Shown piece by piece: positions 17,982 through 34,976 of a DNA stretch of 64,000 bases. The position numbers and the translations under genes are program-made. This stretch comes from Cloacibacterium caeni (GTDB taxonomy: Bacteria; Bacteroidota; Bacteroidia; Flavobacteriales; Weeksellaceae). Positions within the stretch are counted from its first letter, which is position 1. Every line of letters begins with the position of its first letter. The DNA is taken from contig NZ_OU015321.1 in assembly GCF_907163105.1 (NCBI RefSeq), forward strand, positions 124,001-188,000, in the 5' to 3' direction. The notes beneath the pieces were generated by a model that worked only from the letters and a program-made list of their open reading frames with translations, had not been told where the DNA came from and searched no databases.

Positions 17982-18659
17982 TTATTGTTCTTGTTCTATT
18001 TTTTGCAATTGCTCTAGATTTCTGCTCAGTCTGCCCATAATAATTCCGTAAACTATTCTGTAATACAGCCAAATCAGGAGAACGCCTAAACCAATGCTTA
18101 TCACAATTCCTGTAATAAATCCTATTAAAGTGGCTTGGTTTAAATGAATGTTTTGAGCTTGCAACACATTCATAATGAAATAAGTAATAATACCCGAAAA
18201 AACAATCAATAAACCAATATTGGTGAAGATAAATAGGTTAACGGTTCTTTTGAACTTGATAATTTGGAGAATAAAATTTTTCAAATTGCATTCTACCTTA
18301 ATTTTCAGATAATTTCTGTAAAAAAGAAAAACAAAAATCGCGGTAATCAGTAAACTAAAGACTTTCAAGGCAAAATAAAGATGCTCAAAATTCATTTCTA
18401 CATCATCATTCATTTGTACGCCTAGTTTTTCTAAAATATTAGTAAAACTATTGCTTCTTTGGGTAGAAAAAATCGTACAAATCCCAACGATGGCGAAAAA
18501 TAAAAATTCTGCCAAACTAATCCAGAAAATATATTTTACATAGTTGGTAGATTTTTTGTTGAGCATTCCTTCTATTTCAGACATGTTATACACATCAGAA
18601 ATGGGTTGTTCCTGCCAGGATTTTTTAAATTGGTCTATATTGAAATCTTCATTAAGCAT
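17982..18659 (-). CDS. Probable membrane anti-sigma factor or sigma-linked membrane protein
   Basis: 225 residues. A soluble N-terminus of about 40 residues (FNIDQFKKSWQEQPISDVYN) is followed by four likely membrane helices (near 45-63, 95-115, 138-160, 177-198) and a short basic C-terminus. It overlaps the end of the upstream ECF sigma gene by 8 nt, the classical arrangement of a sigma/anti-sigma pair, so it probably binds the sigma factor through the cytoplasmic N-terminus. I do not recognise a named domain such as zinc-finger ASD. The role is inferred from position. Confidence 0.6.
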   Translation of the reverse strand: MLNEDFNIDQFKKSWQEQPISDVYNMSEIEGMLNKKSTNYVKYIFWISLAEFLFFAIVGICTIFSTQRSNSFTNILEKLGVQMNDDVEMNFEHLYFALKVFSLLITAIFVFLFYRNYLKIKVECNLKNFILQIIKFKRTVNLFIFTNIGLLIVFSGIITYFIMNVLQAQNIHLNQATLIGFITGIVISIGLGVLLIWLYYRIVYGIIMGRLSRNLEQLQKIEQEQ

Positions 18660-19188
18660 GTTGAGTCATCAATTCTTTAAGTGTTTTTTTGAGTCTGTTC
18701 ATTTTTACACGGGCATTTACTTCTGTAATCCCTAAATTTTCTGCAATATCACGGTAAGGTAAATCGTCTAAATACATCATCACAATTGCACGTTCTACTT
18801 TTGGGAGCATTTTAATCACCTTATAAAGCAGAGTGATTTGTTGTTGCTTTTCGTCATCATCTTCCATATAATCTCTGTGGTGAAAATCCATCAACTCATC
18901 AGTTTGAGGAGATTTCGTTTTCTTTCGGAAAAGCGTAATTGCCGTATTAAGCGCTACTCTGTACATCCAAGTAGAAATTTTGGACTGTCCTTTGAATGAG
19001 TCGTAACTGCGCCAAAGTTGTAACACAATTTCTTGAAAAAGATCCTGTTCATCTTCCAGAGAATTGGTATATAATCTGGAGACTTTTATAATAAGCCCCT
19101 GATTTTCCTTTACCAACTTAGAAAATTCTTTTTGTTTAGAATCCAATTTTTTAGAAATTAAAGAACGAAGATAAGAAAATGCGCTCAT
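18652..19188 (-). CDS. ECF-type RNA polymerase sigma factor
   Basis: 178 residues from ATG 19188 (MSAFSYLRSL). Region 2 is DEQDLFQEIVLQLWRSYDSF with STWMYRVALNTAITLFRK; region 4 is LPKVERAIVMMYLDDLPYRD with the helix-turn-helix IAENLGITEVNARVKMNRLK. The frame stays open 36 codons further upstream, but that part is translated from the hairpin repeat at 19248-19300 and is not family-like, so the shorter start is preferred. It is paired with the downstream membrane protein and probably directs a small stress or envelope regulon. Confidence 0.92.
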   Translation of the reverse strand: MSAFSYLRSLISKKLDSKQKEFSKLVKENQGLIIKVSRLYTNSLEDEQDLFQEIVLQLWRSYDSFKGQSKISTWMYRVALNTAITLFRKKTKSPQTDELMDFHHRDYMEDDDEKQQQITLLYKVIKMLPKVERAIVMMYLDDLPYRDIAENLGITEVNARVKMNRLKKTLKELMTQHA

Positions 19189-19247
19189 TAATGGATGGCA
19201 AAACGTAATTTTTTTCTTGGGCGCCAAATTCTTCGTTCCGCTCCCGC

Positions 19248-19300
19248 TTTTTTGTTTTTTGTCATTCTGAGCGGAGTCGAAGAATCTAAAAAACAAAAAG
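19248..19300. repeat. REP-like hairpin, ATTCT/AGAAT version
   Basis: ATTCT (19264-19268), loop GAGCGGAGTCGA, AGAAT (19281-19285), enclosed by A/T arms of at least 11 bp. The core from 19261 matches the ends of the GIY-YIG unit at 24081 and 24437, except that the TT/AA pairs of the stem are GG/CC there. Confidence 0.85.
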
Positions 19301-19868: not shown

Positions 19869-20744
19869 TTATTCGCTTTCCAACTGCTTTTTCGCATCAT
19901 CCAATCCCGCTCTCTCTTCTTCTGAAAGTGTAGGATATTGCAGATTCATTTTTTCTAGCGTTTCTATAATAATTTGTACAGCGGCCACTCTTGCAAACCA
20001 TTTTTGGTCAGCAGGAATCACAAACCAAGGCGCATGTTCTTTACTGGTTTCAGAAATGGCTTCTTCGTAAGCCTTCATATATTGGTCGAAAACAGCACGT
20101 TCTTTTAAGTCGCCAATAGAAAATTTCCAGTTTTTTTCTTGTTCAGCAATTCGGTCTAGGAAACGTTTTTTCTGCTCTTCTTTGGATACGTGAAGGAAAA
20201 TTTTCACAATTTTTGTTCCATTTCTAGCTAGATGTTTTTCAAAATCTTTGATGCTTTCGTATCTATTTTTCCAGAATTTTTCATCAATTTCGTCAGTAGA
20301 TTTCCAAACTTTTTCGCTTAGATTATATTCAGGGTGGACTTTACACACCAAAACACTTTCGTAATGACTGCGGTTAAAAATGCCTATTTTCCCTTTTTCT
20401 GGTAAAGCCAAATAATGCCTCCAGATAAAATCATGACTGTATTCTTTAGAAGTTGGCGTTTTAAAACTGGTCACTTCGCAACCTTGCGGATTTACTCCAC
20501 CGAAAACATGCTCTATCAAACTGTCTTTTCCGGCAGCATCCATCGCTTGTATCACTACCAAAAGTGATTGACTGCCATCTGCGTAAAGCTTTTCTTGAAG
20601 TTCGTAGAGTTTTTTCTTCTCTGCATCGAGCATTTTTTGACTTTCTTCTTTGGTCAGTTCGCCTTTATAATCGGTGTTGAAATCTTTGAGATTAAATTTT
20701 TGATTTTCTTTTACAAGAAAGTTATCGGTGAAATTGGTGTCCAT
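19869..20744 (-). CDS. ppk2: Polyphosphate kinase 2 family protein
   Basis: 291 residues from ATG 20744 (MDTNFTDNF); the frame continues to a TTG at 20765, but that is less likely. Walker A-like VIQAMDAAGKDSLIEHVFGG, Walker B region GKIGIFNRSHYESVLV and lid arginines in HVSKEEQKKRFLDRI are the PPK2 signatures. It uses polyphosphate to phosphorylate AMP, ADP or GDP. The single-domain form with AAGKDS resembles class III enzymes acting on both AMP and ADP; class is inference. A near-consensus TATCTTTA box lies at 20774-20767. It converges on rnpB with only 4 nt between. Confidence 0.92.
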   Translation of the reverse strand: MDTNFTDNFLVKENQKFNLKDFNTDYKGELTKEESQKMLDAEKKKLYELQEKLYADGSQSLLVVIQAMDAAGKDSLIEHVFGGVNPQGCEVTSFKTPTSKEYSHDFIWRHYLALPEKGKIGIFNRSHYESVLVCKVHPEYNLSEKVWKSTDEIDEKFWKNRYESIKDFEKHLARNGTKIVKIFLHVSKEEQKKRFLDRIAEQEKNWKFSIGDLKERAVFDQYMKAYEEAISETSKEHAPWFVIPADQKWFARVAAVQIIIETLEKMNLQYPTLSEEERAGLDDAKKQLESE

Positions 20745-20780
20745 TTTTTGAAAAATTTTGTTCAACTAAAGATAATAAAA

Positions 20781-20808
20781 AAAAACCGACTGGTTAAAGT
20801 CGGTTTTT
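20781..20808 (-). terminator. Terminator of the DUF1573 gene
   Basis: AAAAACCGAC / GTCGGTTTTT stem; an A run on the plus strand supplies the T tail for the minus-strand transcript. Confidence 0.8.
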
Positions 20809-20829
20809 GTATAATAATTTTAAAAAGAA

Positions 20830-21234
20830 TTATTTTTTTGGAGCTAAAGTTTTTTCTTCAGTTTTAGCATTTGCATCTACCGTTCCTTGGATGTATAGAA
20901 CCACTCTTCCGTTTACGGGGTCGTTAGAAAATACATCGATAGATTTTTTGAAAGGGGCAGCATTTGCAGTGTTGTAATGAACTTTAATCTGTGCAGATTT
21001 ACCTGGCAATACTGGTTCTTTTGGCCATTCAGAAGCGGTGCAACCACAGCCTGGCTGTACGTTAGAAAGGATCAAAGGCTTGTTACCAGTATTTTTAAAA
21101 GTAAAAACTCTGTTTCCATCTGCATTCACAGGAACAGTACCGTAATCAATAGTTGTTTTTTCAAAAGAAATAGTTTGTGCAGAAGAGAAAACAAAACCTC
21201 CGATAAGCAACAAACCGCCCATAAATTTTTTCAT
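20830..21234 (-). CDS. Exported DUF1573 domain protein
   Basis: 134 residues. A signal peptide (MKKFMGGLLLIGGFVFSSAQ) is followed by one Ig-like DUF1573 domain: FEKTTIDYGTVPVNADGNRV, FTFKNTGNKPLILSNVQPGC with the GCGCT motif, then YNTANAAPFKKSIDVFSNDP. It ends in a short charged tail (EEKTLAPKK). This ASPM/SPD-2/Hydin-like fold is common in Bacteroidota envelopes, but its function is not established. It is monocistronic. Confidence 0.9.
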   Translation of the reverse strand: MKKFMGGLLLIGGFVFSSAQTISFEKTTIDYGTVPVNADGNRVFTFKNTGNKPLILSNVQPGCGCTASEWPKEPVLPGKSAQIKVHYNTANAAPFKKSIDVFSNDPVNGRVVLYIQGTVDANAKTEEKTLAPKK

Positions 21235-21389
21235 ATTTAGAAAGTTTTTTGTTGTAAATTAAAGTTCAAAATTATAAATAAATTCTGTAATTAAATCCAA
21301 ATTCTTCTTTTTATTTTACTTTGTCTGATTCATATTCCAAAATTCTCAAAAAGAAGAGCTTTAACCATTTAAAAATTCACATTTTATCG

Positions 21390-21397
21390 TATTTTTG
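21390..21397 (+). promoter_or_regulatory. -7 promoter element TATTTTTG for valS
   Basis: Consensus -7 box 37 nt before the valS ATG. Confidence 0.65.
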
Positions 21398-21434
21398 CAA
21401 ATTACAAGCCAAACTCATTTTTATTTAAAATTTT

Positions 21435-24050
21435 ATGCAAATTTCAGAAAAATATAATCCTCAGGAAACAGAACAGAAATGGTACAATTACTGGTTAGAA
21501 AACAATTATTTTCATTCTACTCCAGATAACAGACCTCCTTACACGATTGTAATTCCGCCACCAAACGTGACGGGAATTCTTCACATGGGACACATGTTAA
21601 ACAATACCATTCAAGATGTTTTGGTCAGAAGAGCCAGAATGCAAGGATTTAATGCACTTTGGGTTCCGGGAACAGACCACGCTTCTATTGCTACTGAAGC
21701 TAAAGTGGTGGCAAAACTGAAATCGGAAGGAATTAATAAATCTGATATTACCCGAGATGAATTTTTAGTTCACGCTTGGGATTGGACGCATAAATATGGC
21801 GGAACAATACTTGAACAGTTAAAGAAATTAGGTTGTTCTTGTGATTGGGACAGAACGCGTTTCACAATGGAACCGAAATTGTCTGCTCAAGTCATCAAAT
21901 CTTTCGTTGATTTATACAATAAAGGTTTGATTTACAGAGGTTATAGAATGGTGAACTGGGATCCAGAAGCCAAAACCAATATTTCTGATGAAGAAGTAAT
22001 TTACAAAGAACTCAACGGGAAACTTTGGTACCTTAAATATAAAATTGAAGGTTCTGAAGAGTTTATTTCTGTGGCTACCACTCGTCCAGAAACCATTTTC
22101 GGGGACGTAGCGGTTTGTGTAAATCCAAATGATGAAAAATATGCTCATCTGAAAGGCAAAAACGTAATCGTTCCGATTGTAAATAGAGTCATTCCAATTA
22201 TTGAAGATGAATATGTAGACATGGAATTCGGAACTGGAGCGTTGAAAATCACTCCTGCGCATGATATTAACGACTACGAAATCGGGCAAAAACATAATTT
22301 GCCAATGATTGATGCATTAGATGATGATGGTAAACTGAATGAACACGGATTGCATTACAACGGAAAAGATAGATTCGAGGTTAGAAAACTGATTGCTAAA
22401 GAATTAGAAGAAAATAATCTTTTGGTAAAAGCCGAAGATTATGTAAATAAAGTTGGAACTTCTGAGAGAACTGGAGCTGTAATAGAGCCAAAAATTTCTC
22501 AACAATGGTTCTTGAAAATGTCTGAAATTGCGAAACCAGCTTTGGATGTAGTAATGAATGATGAGGTGAAATTCCACCCAGAAAAATTTAAAAATACATA
22601 CAGACATTGGATGGAAAACATCCGCGATTGGAATATTTCTCGTCAACTTTGGTGGGGTCAACAAATTCCAGCGTATTATTATGGTGAAGGAAGTGAGGAT
22701 TATGTAGTTGCAGAAAATGTAGAAGAAGCTTTGGTTTTAGCCAAAGAAAAAACCAACAACCAACAACTAACAACTGACAACTTAAAACAAGACGAAGATG
22801 CTCTAGATACATGGTTCTCTTCTTGGTTATGGCCGATGTCCGTTTTTGATGGAATGTTAGACGAAAACAATGAAGACATCAAGTATTATTATCCGACTTC
22901 TGATTTGGTAACAGGTCCAGATATTATTTTCTTCTGGGTAGCCAGAATGATTATGGCAGGATTAGAATTTAAAGGCGAAGTTCCTTTTAAAAATGTATAT
23001 TTTACAGGAATTGTAAGGGATAAACAACGCAGAAAAATGTCTAAATCACTCGGAAACTCTCCAGACCCAATAGAATTGATTGAAAAATATGGCGCAGATG
23101 GAGTAAGAGTAGGGATTTTATTGAGTTCAGCAGCTGGAAATGACCTTCTTTTTGATGAAGATTTAATGTTGCAAGGAAGAAACTTCGCGACTAAAATCTG
23201 GAACGCTTTCCGTTTAATCCAAGGTTGGAAAAAAGAAGACATACCAGCAAATGAAGCAGATTTGCAAACGATAGAATGGTTCGGAAATCAAATGAATAAA
23301 ACCATTGCCGAAATCAATGACCAATTCTCAAAATTCAGAATTTCTGATGCCTTGCATTTGATTTATAAACTGATTTGGGACGATTTCTGTGCTTGGTATT
23401 TAGAAGCGATTAAACCAAATTATGGAGAAGGAATTTCTCAGGAAGTTTATGATAAAACCATCGCTTATTTTGAGGAATTAATGAGATTGCTACATCCTTT
23501 CATGCCGTTCTTAACGGAAGAATTGTACCAGGCGATTTCAGAAAGAAGCGCAGAAGAAGCTTTGGTGATTGCTCAACAGAAAAAAGCAGAATCTTTCAGT
23601 GAAGAAAATATAAAAGCCTTTGAAACGGCTAAAGAATTGATTTCTGGCGTTAGAAATTACCGTCAAAGCAAAGGAATTTCGCCTAGAGAAGCCGTAGAAT
23701 TATTTACCAATGTTACAAATTTCGCAAACGAAGCAGTAGTAAGGAAATTGGCAAATGTTTCAGAAATTAATTTCGGAAATAAAACAGATAAACCATGTTT
23801 CACTTTCTTAGTGGGAGCTACAGAAGTTTCCATTCCATTGAGTGAAAACCTTGATTTAGGAGAGGAAAAAGCAAAAACAGAAGAAGAACTAAAATACTTA
23901 AAAGGATTCTTAATTTCGGTAGAAAAGAAACTATCTAACGAAAAATTTGTTGCTGGTGCTCCTGCTCAAGTAGTAGAAAATGAGCGCAAAAAACAAAAAG
24001 ATGCGCAAGATAAAATTGCAATTTTAGAAGAAAAATTAAAAACATTGTAA
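21435..24050 (+). CDS. valS: Valyl-tRNA synthetase
   Basis: 871 residues, normal for bacterial ValRS. The class I HIGH motif appears as [14 protein letters not shown] (HMGH at 50-53), and KMSKS is KMSKSLGN at 534-541. The editing domain (about 190-340) contains [15 protein letters not shown] and [27 protein letters not shown] marks the return to the catalytic fold. The C-terminal coiled coil ([20 protein letters not shown]) contacts tRNA. It charges tRNA-Val and edits Thr. No odd truncation is seen. The GIY-YIG element lies immediately downstream. Confidence 0.98.
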
Positions 24051-24078: not shown

Positions 24079-24106
24079 TTGTCAGGCTGAGCGGAGTCGA
24101 AGCCTT
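24079..24106 (+). repeat. Left inverted end of the GIY-YIG unit
   Basis: 28 nt containing the internal hairpin AGGCT - GAGCGGAGTCGA - AGCCT. The gene start follows 6 nt later. Confidence 0.9.
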
Positions 24107-24112
24107 GTAGAT

Positions 24113-24433
24113 ATGAAACAATATTTTGTCTACATATTAAAATGTTCTGATAATTCATATTATACAGGGATTACCAGTGATTTAGAAGGAAGACTTATAA
24201 AGCACCAATCAGGTTATTATCCTGAAAGCTATGCCCATAACAGAAGACCAGTAGAATTAGTTTTTTATACTGAATTTAATGATGTAGAACAAGCCATTTC
24301 ATTTGAAAAACGAGTCAAAGGTTGGAGTAGAAAAAAGAAAGAAGCCATTATTAAAGATAATTGGAATTTATTACCAAAATTATCTATATGTAAAATGAAA
24401 CTCATTCAAATAATTTTGAAAAAGATAAAATAA
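24113..24433 (+). CDS. GIY-YIG nuclease family protein
   Basis: 106 residues, a stand-alone GIY-YIG domain of the UPF0213/YhbQ type. The motif is YFVYILKCSDNSYYTGITSD, giving the VYI...YTGI pair, then the catalytic Arg in LEGRLIKH, Glu in AISFEKRVKGWSRKKKEAII (metal binding) and NW/N in DNWNLLPKL. Such domains cut or nick DNA. The C-terminus is strongly basic (MKLIQIILKKIK). It is bounded on both sides by inverted hairpin repeats and its stop codon abuts the right one, so gene and ends look like one unit. Its cellular role is unknown. Confidence 0.93.
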   Translation: MKQYFVYILKCSDNSYYTGITSDLEGRLIKHQSGYYPESYAHNRRPVELVFYTEFNDVEQAISFEKRVKGWSRKKKEAIIKDNWNLLPKLSICKMKLIQIILKKIK

Positions 24434-24436
24434 AAA

Positions 24437-24464
24437 AAGGCTTCGACACCGCTCAGCCTGACAA
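24437..24464 (-). repeat. Right inverted end of the GIY-YIG unit
   Basis: Reverse complement of the left end with one mismatch in the loop (A to T). It begins 3 nt after the GIY-YIG stop codon and may double as a terminator hairpin. Confidence 0.9.
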
Positions 24465-24501: not shown

Positions 24502-25143
24502 ATGTCACACCTAGAAAACATATCAAAACTTTTTTCTAAAAATTTTGTAGAAAATCCAATGCTAGAAACTTTCGAGGCAGGAAAAATTCATCTTCCTAGC
24601 GGAAAGTTAGTCGCTTGTGATCCATTGATTACCCATGACATGAAGGAATTTGTGATTCATTTTCCTGTAGGTGATTTTCCTGTTTTTGTACACAAAGAAA
24701 GAGATAGCAATTGTATTGCTTATGTAGAAATAGTGTTTCAAAATGAGGAGGCAACAACCTTTAAAATGGCAACTACAGAAGGTCAACATATTGAAGATTT
24801 GCAAGGAGAAGAAGTTTTCGGGTATCCTGTAGAATCGGGAATGGGTTGTTTTATGGATGCAGAAACGCAGGATGCTCTTAATCATCTAGAAAATAGATTG
24901 TTTCATAGAAAAGGAGCAGATTTTATGGGAATTTATGAAGAGTTTTTCCACAGTCATTTCTTTGATGAAAATGGAGCGATTGACCAATTTGCGTTCCTAA
25001 AACCAGACGAAGGAAAACCAGGAAATATTTTTGCTTTCGAAACAGGATATGGAGAAGGTTTCTATGCAAGCTATATTGGTTTTGGTGCAGAAAATCAACC
25101 GGTTAAAATTATAACGGAGTTTATTGAAATAAAATCTGAATAA
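24502..25143 (+). CDS. DUF4241 domain protein
   Basis: 213 residues, essentially the whole protein being DUF4241: LPSGKLVACDPLI at the start, FPVFVHKERDSNCIAYVEIV, then YPVESGMGCFMDAETQDAL and the closing GYGEGFYASYIGFGAENQPV. The family is found in bacteria with unknown function and some members accompany immunity or toxin loci; nothing here points to a toxin. No signal peptide. It is followed by a ribokinase-like gene after 93 bp. Confidence 0.85.
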   Translation: MSHLENISKLFSKNFVENPMLETFEAGKIHLPSGKLVACDPLITHDMKEFVIHFPVGDFPVFVHKERDSNCIAYVEIVFQNEEATTFKMATTEGQHIEDLQGEEVFGYPVESGMGCFMDAETQDALNHLENRLFHRKGADFMGIYEEFFHSHFFDENGAIDQFAFLKPDEGKPGNIFAFETGYGEGFYASYIGFGAENQPVKIITEFIEIKSE

Positions 25144-34868: not shown

Positions 34869-34976
34869 AAAAATTAAATTTTTAGAAAAATCAAGAGATT
34901 GCTTCGTACCTCGCAATGACAATCTTATAAAAGGAATAAGTAACTCGTAACACGAATTTCGAAACAAAACACTATT

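Follow-up and report, generated by a model that had tools for sequence, protein, structure and literature searches.

A single-domain GIY-YIG nuclease gene framed by TGTC-tagged hairpin repeats in Cloacibacterium caeni, and the agreement between loop class and nuclease lineage in its relatives

The nuclease gene and its framing repeat

The window analysed here is the whole stretch of 64,000 nucleotides that covers positions 124001-188000 of a 2.72-Mb single-contig genome of Cloacibacterium caeni (G000). Between valS and a DUF4241 gene it carries a small gene for a GIY-YIG protein, which is framed by two inverted copies of a hairpin repeat (Table 1). The arms form a 28-nt inverted pair, 27/28 complementary (96%) and 330 nt apart, and the ORF fills the gap between them, leaving 6 nt between the left arm and its start and 3 nt between its stop codon and the right arm. 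An earlier note on this DNA had described the gene in this way, between 28-bp near-perfect inverted hairpins, and the description holds.

Table 1. Features of the nuclease unit, its conserved neighbours and a solitary hairpin (positions in the window)
Feature	Position	Strand	Basis
Solitary class-A hairpin, stem ATTCT/AGAAT, between T-rich and A-rich arms	19258..19290	+	
valS, conserved left neighbour of the nuclease unit	21435..24050	+	
Left hairpin repeat, loop class A	24079..24106	+	Inverted-repeat comparison
Left hairpin, tag TGTC	24080-24083		
Left hairpin, stem AGGCT/AGCCT	24084-24088 with 24101-24105		
Left hairpin, loop GAGCGGAGTCGA	24089-24100		
GIY-YIG nuclease gene, single domain, 106 aa	24113..24433	+	ORF and Pfam
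Right hairpin repeat, class A, opposite orientation, one loop mismatch	24437..24464	-	
DUF4241 gene, conserved right neighbour of the nuclease unit	24502..25143	+	

Regarding the protein, PF01541 (GIY-YIG) was its sole Pfam match (E 5.4e-18, residues 3-76 of 106); no match was found in NCBIfam, and PADLOC gave none that would place the protein in a defence system. An alignment of 41 relatives shows no variation at residues Y7, Y17, G19, R27, H31 and E65. UPF0213-like proteins have conserved Y, Y, R, H and E residues, and the window nuclease has this set as well as the GIY-YIG domain of about 80-100 aa that characterizes them. The best structural matches of its structure model (mean pLDDT 90.5) were the GIY-YIG proteins UPF0213 BH0048 and EF2693, followed by Slx1, and a profile search was concordant (E 3.1e-20 to PDB 1zg2). 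Fold and size are those of the UPF0213/YhbQ proteins (PDB 1zg2, 1ywl; E. coli YhbQ, 33% identity), although no tagged hairpin lies within 300 nt of the E. coli gene. GIY-YIG homing endonucleases share the same catalytic domain, but the window nuclease consists of this one domain and its presumed target would flank the gene rather than be split by it.

The 3'-end of the gene deserves attention. In 12 of the 14 other class-A genes whose ends were compared, the ORF extends into the right hairpin and codes for a C-terminal tail such as GFDSAQPD, whereas the window nuclease is frame-shifted after about residue 93 with respect to these relatives and its stop codon precedes the right hairpin. Judging from the translations, the hairpin repeat seems to have been turned into part of the enzyme in the class-A relatives that carry the tail.

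The class-A repeat consists of a TGTC tag, a covarying 5-bp stem and the constant loop GAGCGnAGTCGA. The 12-nt loop occurs 3 times in the window with at most 1 mismatch, against 0.03 expected, and in the complete genome TGAGCGGAGTCGAAG matched 55 sites with at most 2 mismatches, against 2 for the reversed pattern; 5 of the 55 sites belong to one tandem array. Counting exact loops of the classes defined below, the genome has 30 of class A, 17 of class B and 0 of class C. Among the matches listed, the exact A loops formed at least 16 -/+ pairs within 100 nt and no +/- pairs when inspected by eye, and some +/- pairs appeared once mismatches were allowed.

Folding single hairpins gave structures no better than those of shuffled sequences (z from -0.3 to -0.9 for the framing pair and from +0.8 to +0.9 for the solitary hairpin), and therefore we used covariation as evidence of structure. 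Around TGAGCGnAGTCGAA, in 29 class-A copies of the window's genome, the first pair is complementary in 29/29 copies (21 expected by shuffling), the second in 29/29 (8 expected), the third in 25/29 (11) and the fourth in 23/29 (13), and from the fifth pair onwards the counts are near chance (9/29 against 7 expected). Across the 192 class-A copies of all compared loci the fifth pair has a small excess, 51 against 36 expected. The pairing of the bases that flank TGAGCGnAGTCGAA thus gives a five-pair stem, made of four varying pairs and the T-A pair of the core. All 5 are Watson-Crick pairs, the outermost being often A-T; 8 stem pairs would be reached only by counting two G.A pairs and one G-C pair within the loop. 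The left tag positions are T86 G80 T83 C80 A81 per cent in the 192 copies and T69 G55 T59 C52 A55 per cent in the 29 copies of this genome, with pairing near chance at the tag.

Tagged hairpins beside related nuclease genes

Of 296 genomes searched across the family, 158 have a homologue at E <= 1e-10. The compared set comprises 118 genes from 92 genomes, namely 30 loci retrieved with this search, 80 stretches chosen by hand among the matches listed, and the matches from the genus, two duplicate rows (L036, L041) having been left out. When left flanks were compared de novo with right flanks, inverted arms appeared around many relatives, with loops that differ from one group to another. We defined five loop classes: A, TGAGCGnAGTCGA; B, TGAGCnTGTCGA; C, TGAGGnnCTCGA; D, TCTCGATAC and GTCAsTTCGAGT (s = C or G); and E, TGAGCGnAGCCGA. 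These patterns were defined after inspecting the 118 genes and were later applied unchanged to a named set, the 80 loci most similar to the query among 555 candidates in public genomes. By record title the named set is mostly Bacteroidota, and it also includes Nitrospinota, Ignavibacteria and Delongbacteria; at least 4 of its loci come from genomes already present in the 118-gene set. Control windows were taken 800-1000 nt from the same genes and were not matched for being intergenic.

In 109/118 family genes, against 10/117 controls, a classed hairpin lay within 160 nt on one or both sides; for the named loci the numbers were 76/80 against 4/68 controls. The same class was found on both sides in 80/118 genes against 3/117 controls, and in 61/80 named loci against 0/68 controls (59/80 with slightly narrower windows). 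Furthermore, the best inverted match between left and right flanks of the 80 named loci had a median of 14 against 8 in shuffled sequences, and 46/80 exceeded the largest shuffle. A stricter test in Bacteroidota, for which the tag and 5 exact pairs had to be present, found hairpins on both sides in 27/117 against 1/117 and in 12/73 against 0/68 controls; the left control of this test was high (22/117), perhaps because one chance hairpin in a conserved flank was counted across related loci.

Some of the expectations of the earlier note can be judged from these counts. It had compared the pairing of the nuclease with a dispersed hairpin to that of RAYT and REP, and proposed a search of the genome for the hairpin and a count of GIY-YIG genes lying between inverted copies of it; the 55 genomic sites, the one-sided counts and the same-class pairs all speak in favour of that pairing. 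The related hairpin that it had noticed standing alone near 19261-19285 is real and belongs to the same class A.

Not every member of the family has such repeats. They were lacking at E. coli yhbQ, at another gene of the window's genome (G000:1160702) and at its 616-codon gene (G000:2619705), which is probably uvrC. Five GIY-YIG genes of the genus are more distant (L037, L038, L039, L041, L042); among them the strict test found one hairpin, at L037. By eye, L037 and L038 adjoin other repeats with GTCATT-like starts, and these may perhaps be further enzyme-repeat pairs. We also observed class-D nuclease genes in tandem with class-D repeats between them, 4 copies at L153 (G159) and 2 copies at L161 (G113).

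Using the distant relative L037 as query, we obtained 33 records of a plasmid collection, and 16 loci chosen by hand were examined, two of which, from Sphingobium, are near-copies. A CGTC- or TGTC-tagged hairpin was present on both sides in 11/16 loci against 0/15 controls; of the remaining five, 2 had a hairpin on one side and 3 had none. The loci with hairpins on both sides come from Rhizobiales, Sphingobium, Azospirillum, Aeromonas, Planktothrix, Spirosoma and an N. gonorrhoeae record, a 'plasmid' of 2.17 Mb that looks like a mislabelled chromosome. The N. gonorrhoeae homologue (34% identity over 79 positions) lies among CGTC-tagged repeats. The occurrence of tagged hairpins beside such distant homologues suggests, as far as flanking sequence can tell, that the pairing of GIY-YIG genes with tagged repeats may be general for the CGTC class of REPs.

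As for the surroundings of these distant loci, a GIY-YIG gene with CGTC repeats lies between sufB and sufC in an annotated plasmid of Azospirillum lipoferum (L284), and the same arrangement was recognized by eye from the flanks in Shinella (L295). On plasmid p1 of Planktothrix agardhii (L287), the neighbours of the homologue and its TGTC hairpins are an MmeI-type restriction gene on one side and the DISARM gene drmA on the other.

Loop class, nuclease lineage and hairpin turnover

The nuclease tree was built from protein cores, that is, the first 90 residues with the hairpin-encoded tail excluded; the columns are few, and 61/114 inner branches were unresolved. On this tree the loop class of 109 labelled rows requires 9 changes, and when unlabelled rows are treated as a sixth state it requires 16, against a mean of 68.5 after shuffling. 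The enzymes of classes A, B and C are separated at positions 30, 32, 88, 93 and 95, and positions 30 and 32 flank the invariant H31. More than one loop class beside the gene was found in 6/118 genes.

The same agreement is observed within genomes. Nucleases of two or three labelled classes coexist in 17/92 genomes, and in 16 of these 17 no nuclease adjoins loops of a class other than its own, as in G115 (A, B and D) and G100 (A, B and C). Only the window's own genome departs from this: there the second nuclease (L040) is flanked by B loops on either side, with A loops in addition. This agreement, drawn from sequence comparison, suggests that the enzymes are partners of a repeat class, the version of the adjoining hairpin mostly following that of the nuclease across the nearly two hundred loci compared.

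Carriage of a nuclease also agrees with the number of its repeats. In genus g20 (149 genomes) the 27 carriers of an A nuclease had at least 3 A loops each, with a median of 9, and the remaining 122 genomes a median of 2; the effect persisted after subtracting 2 self copies (p 7e-5) or 4 (p 0.007). Likewise, carriers of a B nuclease (13 genomes, after dropping two uncertain ones from the 15 of clade B) had 20 B loops, compared with 2 in the remaining 136 genomes (p 2e-5 minus 2 self copies). Loop counts and carriage lists of g20 were compiled by hand. All these p-values are optimistic because the genomes are related. No cross effect was detected in g20, as A carriage brought no rise in B or C loops, and B carriage none in A or C loops.

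Repeats are also found where the nuclease is not. In g20, 108 genomes lack nucleases of both class A and class B, and 22 of these contain at least ten A loops, the highest count being 65; repeats therefore persist or spread without the enzyme. G280, G246, G288 and G209, all of g20, have 32 to 65 class-A loops, and a class-A nuclease was not detected in them; these loops are either relics or are served by another enzyme. In the window's genus, four relatives that lack the gene (G001, G002, G005, G006) still have 2 to 26 exact A loops.

Close relatives also differ in their hairpins. The solitary hairpin of Table 1 has the opposite orientation, with two or three base differences, in G001, G002 and G005, where it lies within near-identical flanks; the flip could also have arisen from replication slippage on the palindromic arms. 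Only 10 of 30 loci could be aligned between G000 and G001, and of these 10 sites 5 are conserved and 5 differ: one is inverted in place, one has the same stem with another loop, one (L016, where the flanks are poorly aligned) is absent, and two have other repeats with a GTCA start. On these alignments the hairpins are the dispersed and changing part of the system, with turnover at some sites between close relatives.

Three further observations concern hairpin sites of the window. In G006 an element with an IS110-type transposase lies within the loop of the hairpin that matches the solitary one. A sigma-factor-like ORF (18652-19296, minus strand) runs into the solitary hairpin, so that its protein begins with a doubtful FDSAQNDK stretch. 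Finally, a tagged hairpin of another type (TGTCATTGCGAGGTACGAAGCAAT) lies at 34898-34921 on the minus strand; it is also present in G002 and was not recovered by alignment in G001, G005 and G006.

Proposed mechanism, alternatives and known systems

The product of the nuclease gene is probably a small GIY-YIG endonuclease specialized for one class of TGTC-tagged hairpins, those with the loop GAGCGnAGTCGA, including the two that flank the gene itself. This gene would be the fixed component and the hairpins the dispersed and changing one, and a genome may hold several nuclease-loop pairs, each with its own specificity. What can be read from the sequences themselves is the association, the agreement of loop with lineage and of copy number with carriage, the covarying stems around a constant loop, and the turnover of some sites; that the nuclease cleaves the hairpins and spreads them is what we infer from this pattern. 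The enzyme would bind the tag and loop of the hairpin in single-stranded DNA, made available by replication, transformation or extrusion, and would nick the bound hairpin. Repair or recombination of the nicked ends could then move, flip or replace hairpins, and in this way the repeats would stay matched to their enzyme. As a second outcome, the enzyme might degrade incoming single-stranded DNA or bias its recombination, as is reported of the Neisseria nuclease Ssn.

This second outcome could be the main one, the enzyme degrading or steering incoming single-stranded DNA during natural transformation and the repeats being kept because they are useful and not because they are spread. We regard this as a real possibility, albeit a rather unlikely one. 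A 2025 report in Nature Communications is said to describe Ssn as a single-domain GIY-YIG nuclease of single-stranded DNA whose cognate repeat, NTS, has hundreds of copies. Ssn reportedly cleaves single-stranded DNA only, in a sequence-specific manner, and its reported effects are degradation of, or a recombination bias in, incoming single-stranded DNA. If it does describe this, the report supports the biochemical step of the proposed mechanism as well as this alternative. The N. gonorrhoeae homologue points the same way, since it lies among CGTC-tagged repeats, a type that the part of the 2013 survey used here equates with dRS3 (PMC3733652). Nevertheless, the turnover of hairpins between relatives suggests movement or conversion as well.

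Alternatively, the hairpins might be cis-regulatory or terminator structures of the gene, and the nuclease might act on something else. The left loop core ends 12-19 nt before the inferred start codon in 28 class-A copies, which would suit such a role, and REPs are regarded by some as RNA elements, as mentioned in the survey (PMC3733652). However, the fold is weak, and regulation in cis accounts neither for the loop class following the nuclease lineage, nor for copy number elsewhere following carriage, nor for the different loops at nucleases within one genome; we therefore find this explanation improbable.

The earlier note had suspected that the unit is a mobile element. An autonomous element of IS type, with the nuclease moving itself and both ends, would explain a gene between near-perfect inverted ends, its patchy presence in the genus (the unit is at valS-DUF4241 in 1/7 genomes), seven close class-A genes of genus g9 in another context, and the tandem copies in G159 (4) and G113 (2). 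However, 31/118 genes, from four genus codes (g1, g20, g23, g26), occupy the same place between valS and DUF4241. At 28 of these 31 a class-A loop is exact; at the remaining three, either the inverted arms have decayed or the loop carries one mismatch. Tandem class-D genes aside, no near-identical copies within one genome were found among the 118, and none of the matches of the window protein to phages (24 records) or plasmids (30 records) reaches 60% identity. The empty sites that the note had hoped for at this junction were not obtained: gene and hairpins are absent there in all 6 relatives of the window's genus, but the whole spacer differs from that of G000 (86 bp in the four nearest relatives and similar in the other two), so neither a clean empty site nor a target duplication is seen in them. 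Owing to the fixed place, the spacer replaced as a whole and the phage and plasmid matches below 60%, autonomous mobility was rejected as the main reading, and we consider it very improbable. On this comparison of junctions, one old locus kept in G000 and lost or overwritten in its relatives appears to fit better than a recent jump, and gain of the unit in G000 by recombination is possible.

A recent recombination tract might, in particular, have brought the unit in together with the end of valS. Identity to G001 over 1-2 kb is 92.4% to the left of the unit and 96.9% to the right, and it is 93.3% for 19869-24049 against 94.7 and 95.5% beside this segment. The flanks of G006, however, differ in the opposite direction (94.2% left, 89.0% right).

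Finally, that common repeats gather by chance or by hitch-hiking in any intergenic region is scarcely credible, even though they are frequent in this genome, occur without the nuclease, and the controls were not chosen to be intergenic, because 47 loops over 2.72 Mb amount to a few per cent per intergenic space (assuming about two thousand spaces), the controls are low (10/117, 4/68), and the class matches on both sides and within genomes.

The reading that we prefer, a dedicated endonuclease with its own class of hairpins, has parallels among known systems. RAYT/REPIN systems have hairpins in inverted pairs. According to the part of Bertels and Rainey (2011) drawn on here, they combine a single-copy, apparently non-self-mobile gene with dispersed hairpins, and a genome may have several distinct genes (PMC3116915). 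The window gene is likewise framed by inverted copies of the repeat and is apparently not self-mobile; it differs in that its enzyme is a GIY-YIG protein by Pfam and fold and not a Y1 (HUH) tyrosine transposase, and in that the tag is (C/T)GTC, TGTC in the window, instead of GTAG. The nuclease gene is best explained as a fixed, mostly vertically inherited locus, and the system as one that works like RAYT/REPIN with an unrelated nuclease.

The repeats resemble the CGTC-tagged REPs of Di Nocera et al. (2013). The part of that survey used here describes an unpaired CGTC or TGTC tag at one end, a stem of 8-9 bp starting with A-T and a short loop of 4-5 nt, as well as inverted dimers and several families in some genomes, and it reports these REPs from Bacteroidetes, alpha-proteobacteria and Neisseria, where CGTC-1 is dRS3 (PMC3733652). 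The repeat of the window is also dispersed, has an unpaired TGTC tag and forms inverted pairs; as far as Watson-Crick pairs go, its stem is shorter (5), and its conserved loop, which starts and ends with GA, is longer. In the same part of the survey, CGTC REPs 'apparently lack a dedicated transposase', the gene of an associated enzyme was not found, and the authors guessed either that the enzyme had vanished and the families were dying out or that many transposases serve these REPs (PMC3733652). Here, in contrast, an enzyme gene lies beside the repeats.

With the Ssn system, as it is reported, the window shares a single-domain GIY-YIG protein and a cognate dispersed repeat. The differences are that in Bacteroidota many loop classes vary with the nuclease clade, and that in some members the coding sequence of the enzyme includes the repeat. 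If the report does describe such a system, the kind is partly known and the basic idea is not entirely new. In the open-licence literature we found, among the matches listed, no paper that joins GIY-YIG with REP or CGTC repeats, which is weak evidence of absence; in the part of PMC9465073 that was seen, GIY-YIG and repetitive extragenic palindromic sequences are both present, for unrelated genes. The opinion of the earlier note that no system of this kind had been described was too strong, given the CGTC-tagged REPs already in print (PMC3733652) and the system reported for Ssn. The finding is thus wider than that note and partly anticipated, and its newest part is the general link between GIY-YIG genes and tagged hairpins with matched loop classes.

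We also put forward, tentatively and as a proposal slightly more likely to fail than to hold, that single-domain GIY-YIG nucleases are the missing enzymes of the whole CGTC/TGTC REP super-family, from Neisseria and alpha-proteobacteria to Bacteroidota. They would form a second, independently evolved REP system based on a non-HUH nuclease, in which loop recognition and repeats co-diversify, probably through the residues on either side of the active-site histidine (30 and 32), and in which hairpins are flipped, replaced and spread by the enzyme.

Bacterial genomes commonly contain REP-like hairpins. With a cognate nuclease, the CGTC-class repeats would have a partner open to purification and deletion, and loop classes A to E would offer natural enzyme-target pairs to learn how a 90-residue nuclease reads a hairpin loop. 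Beside RAYT/REPIN, this would be a second case of a fixed gene accompanied by a dispersed population of hairpins.
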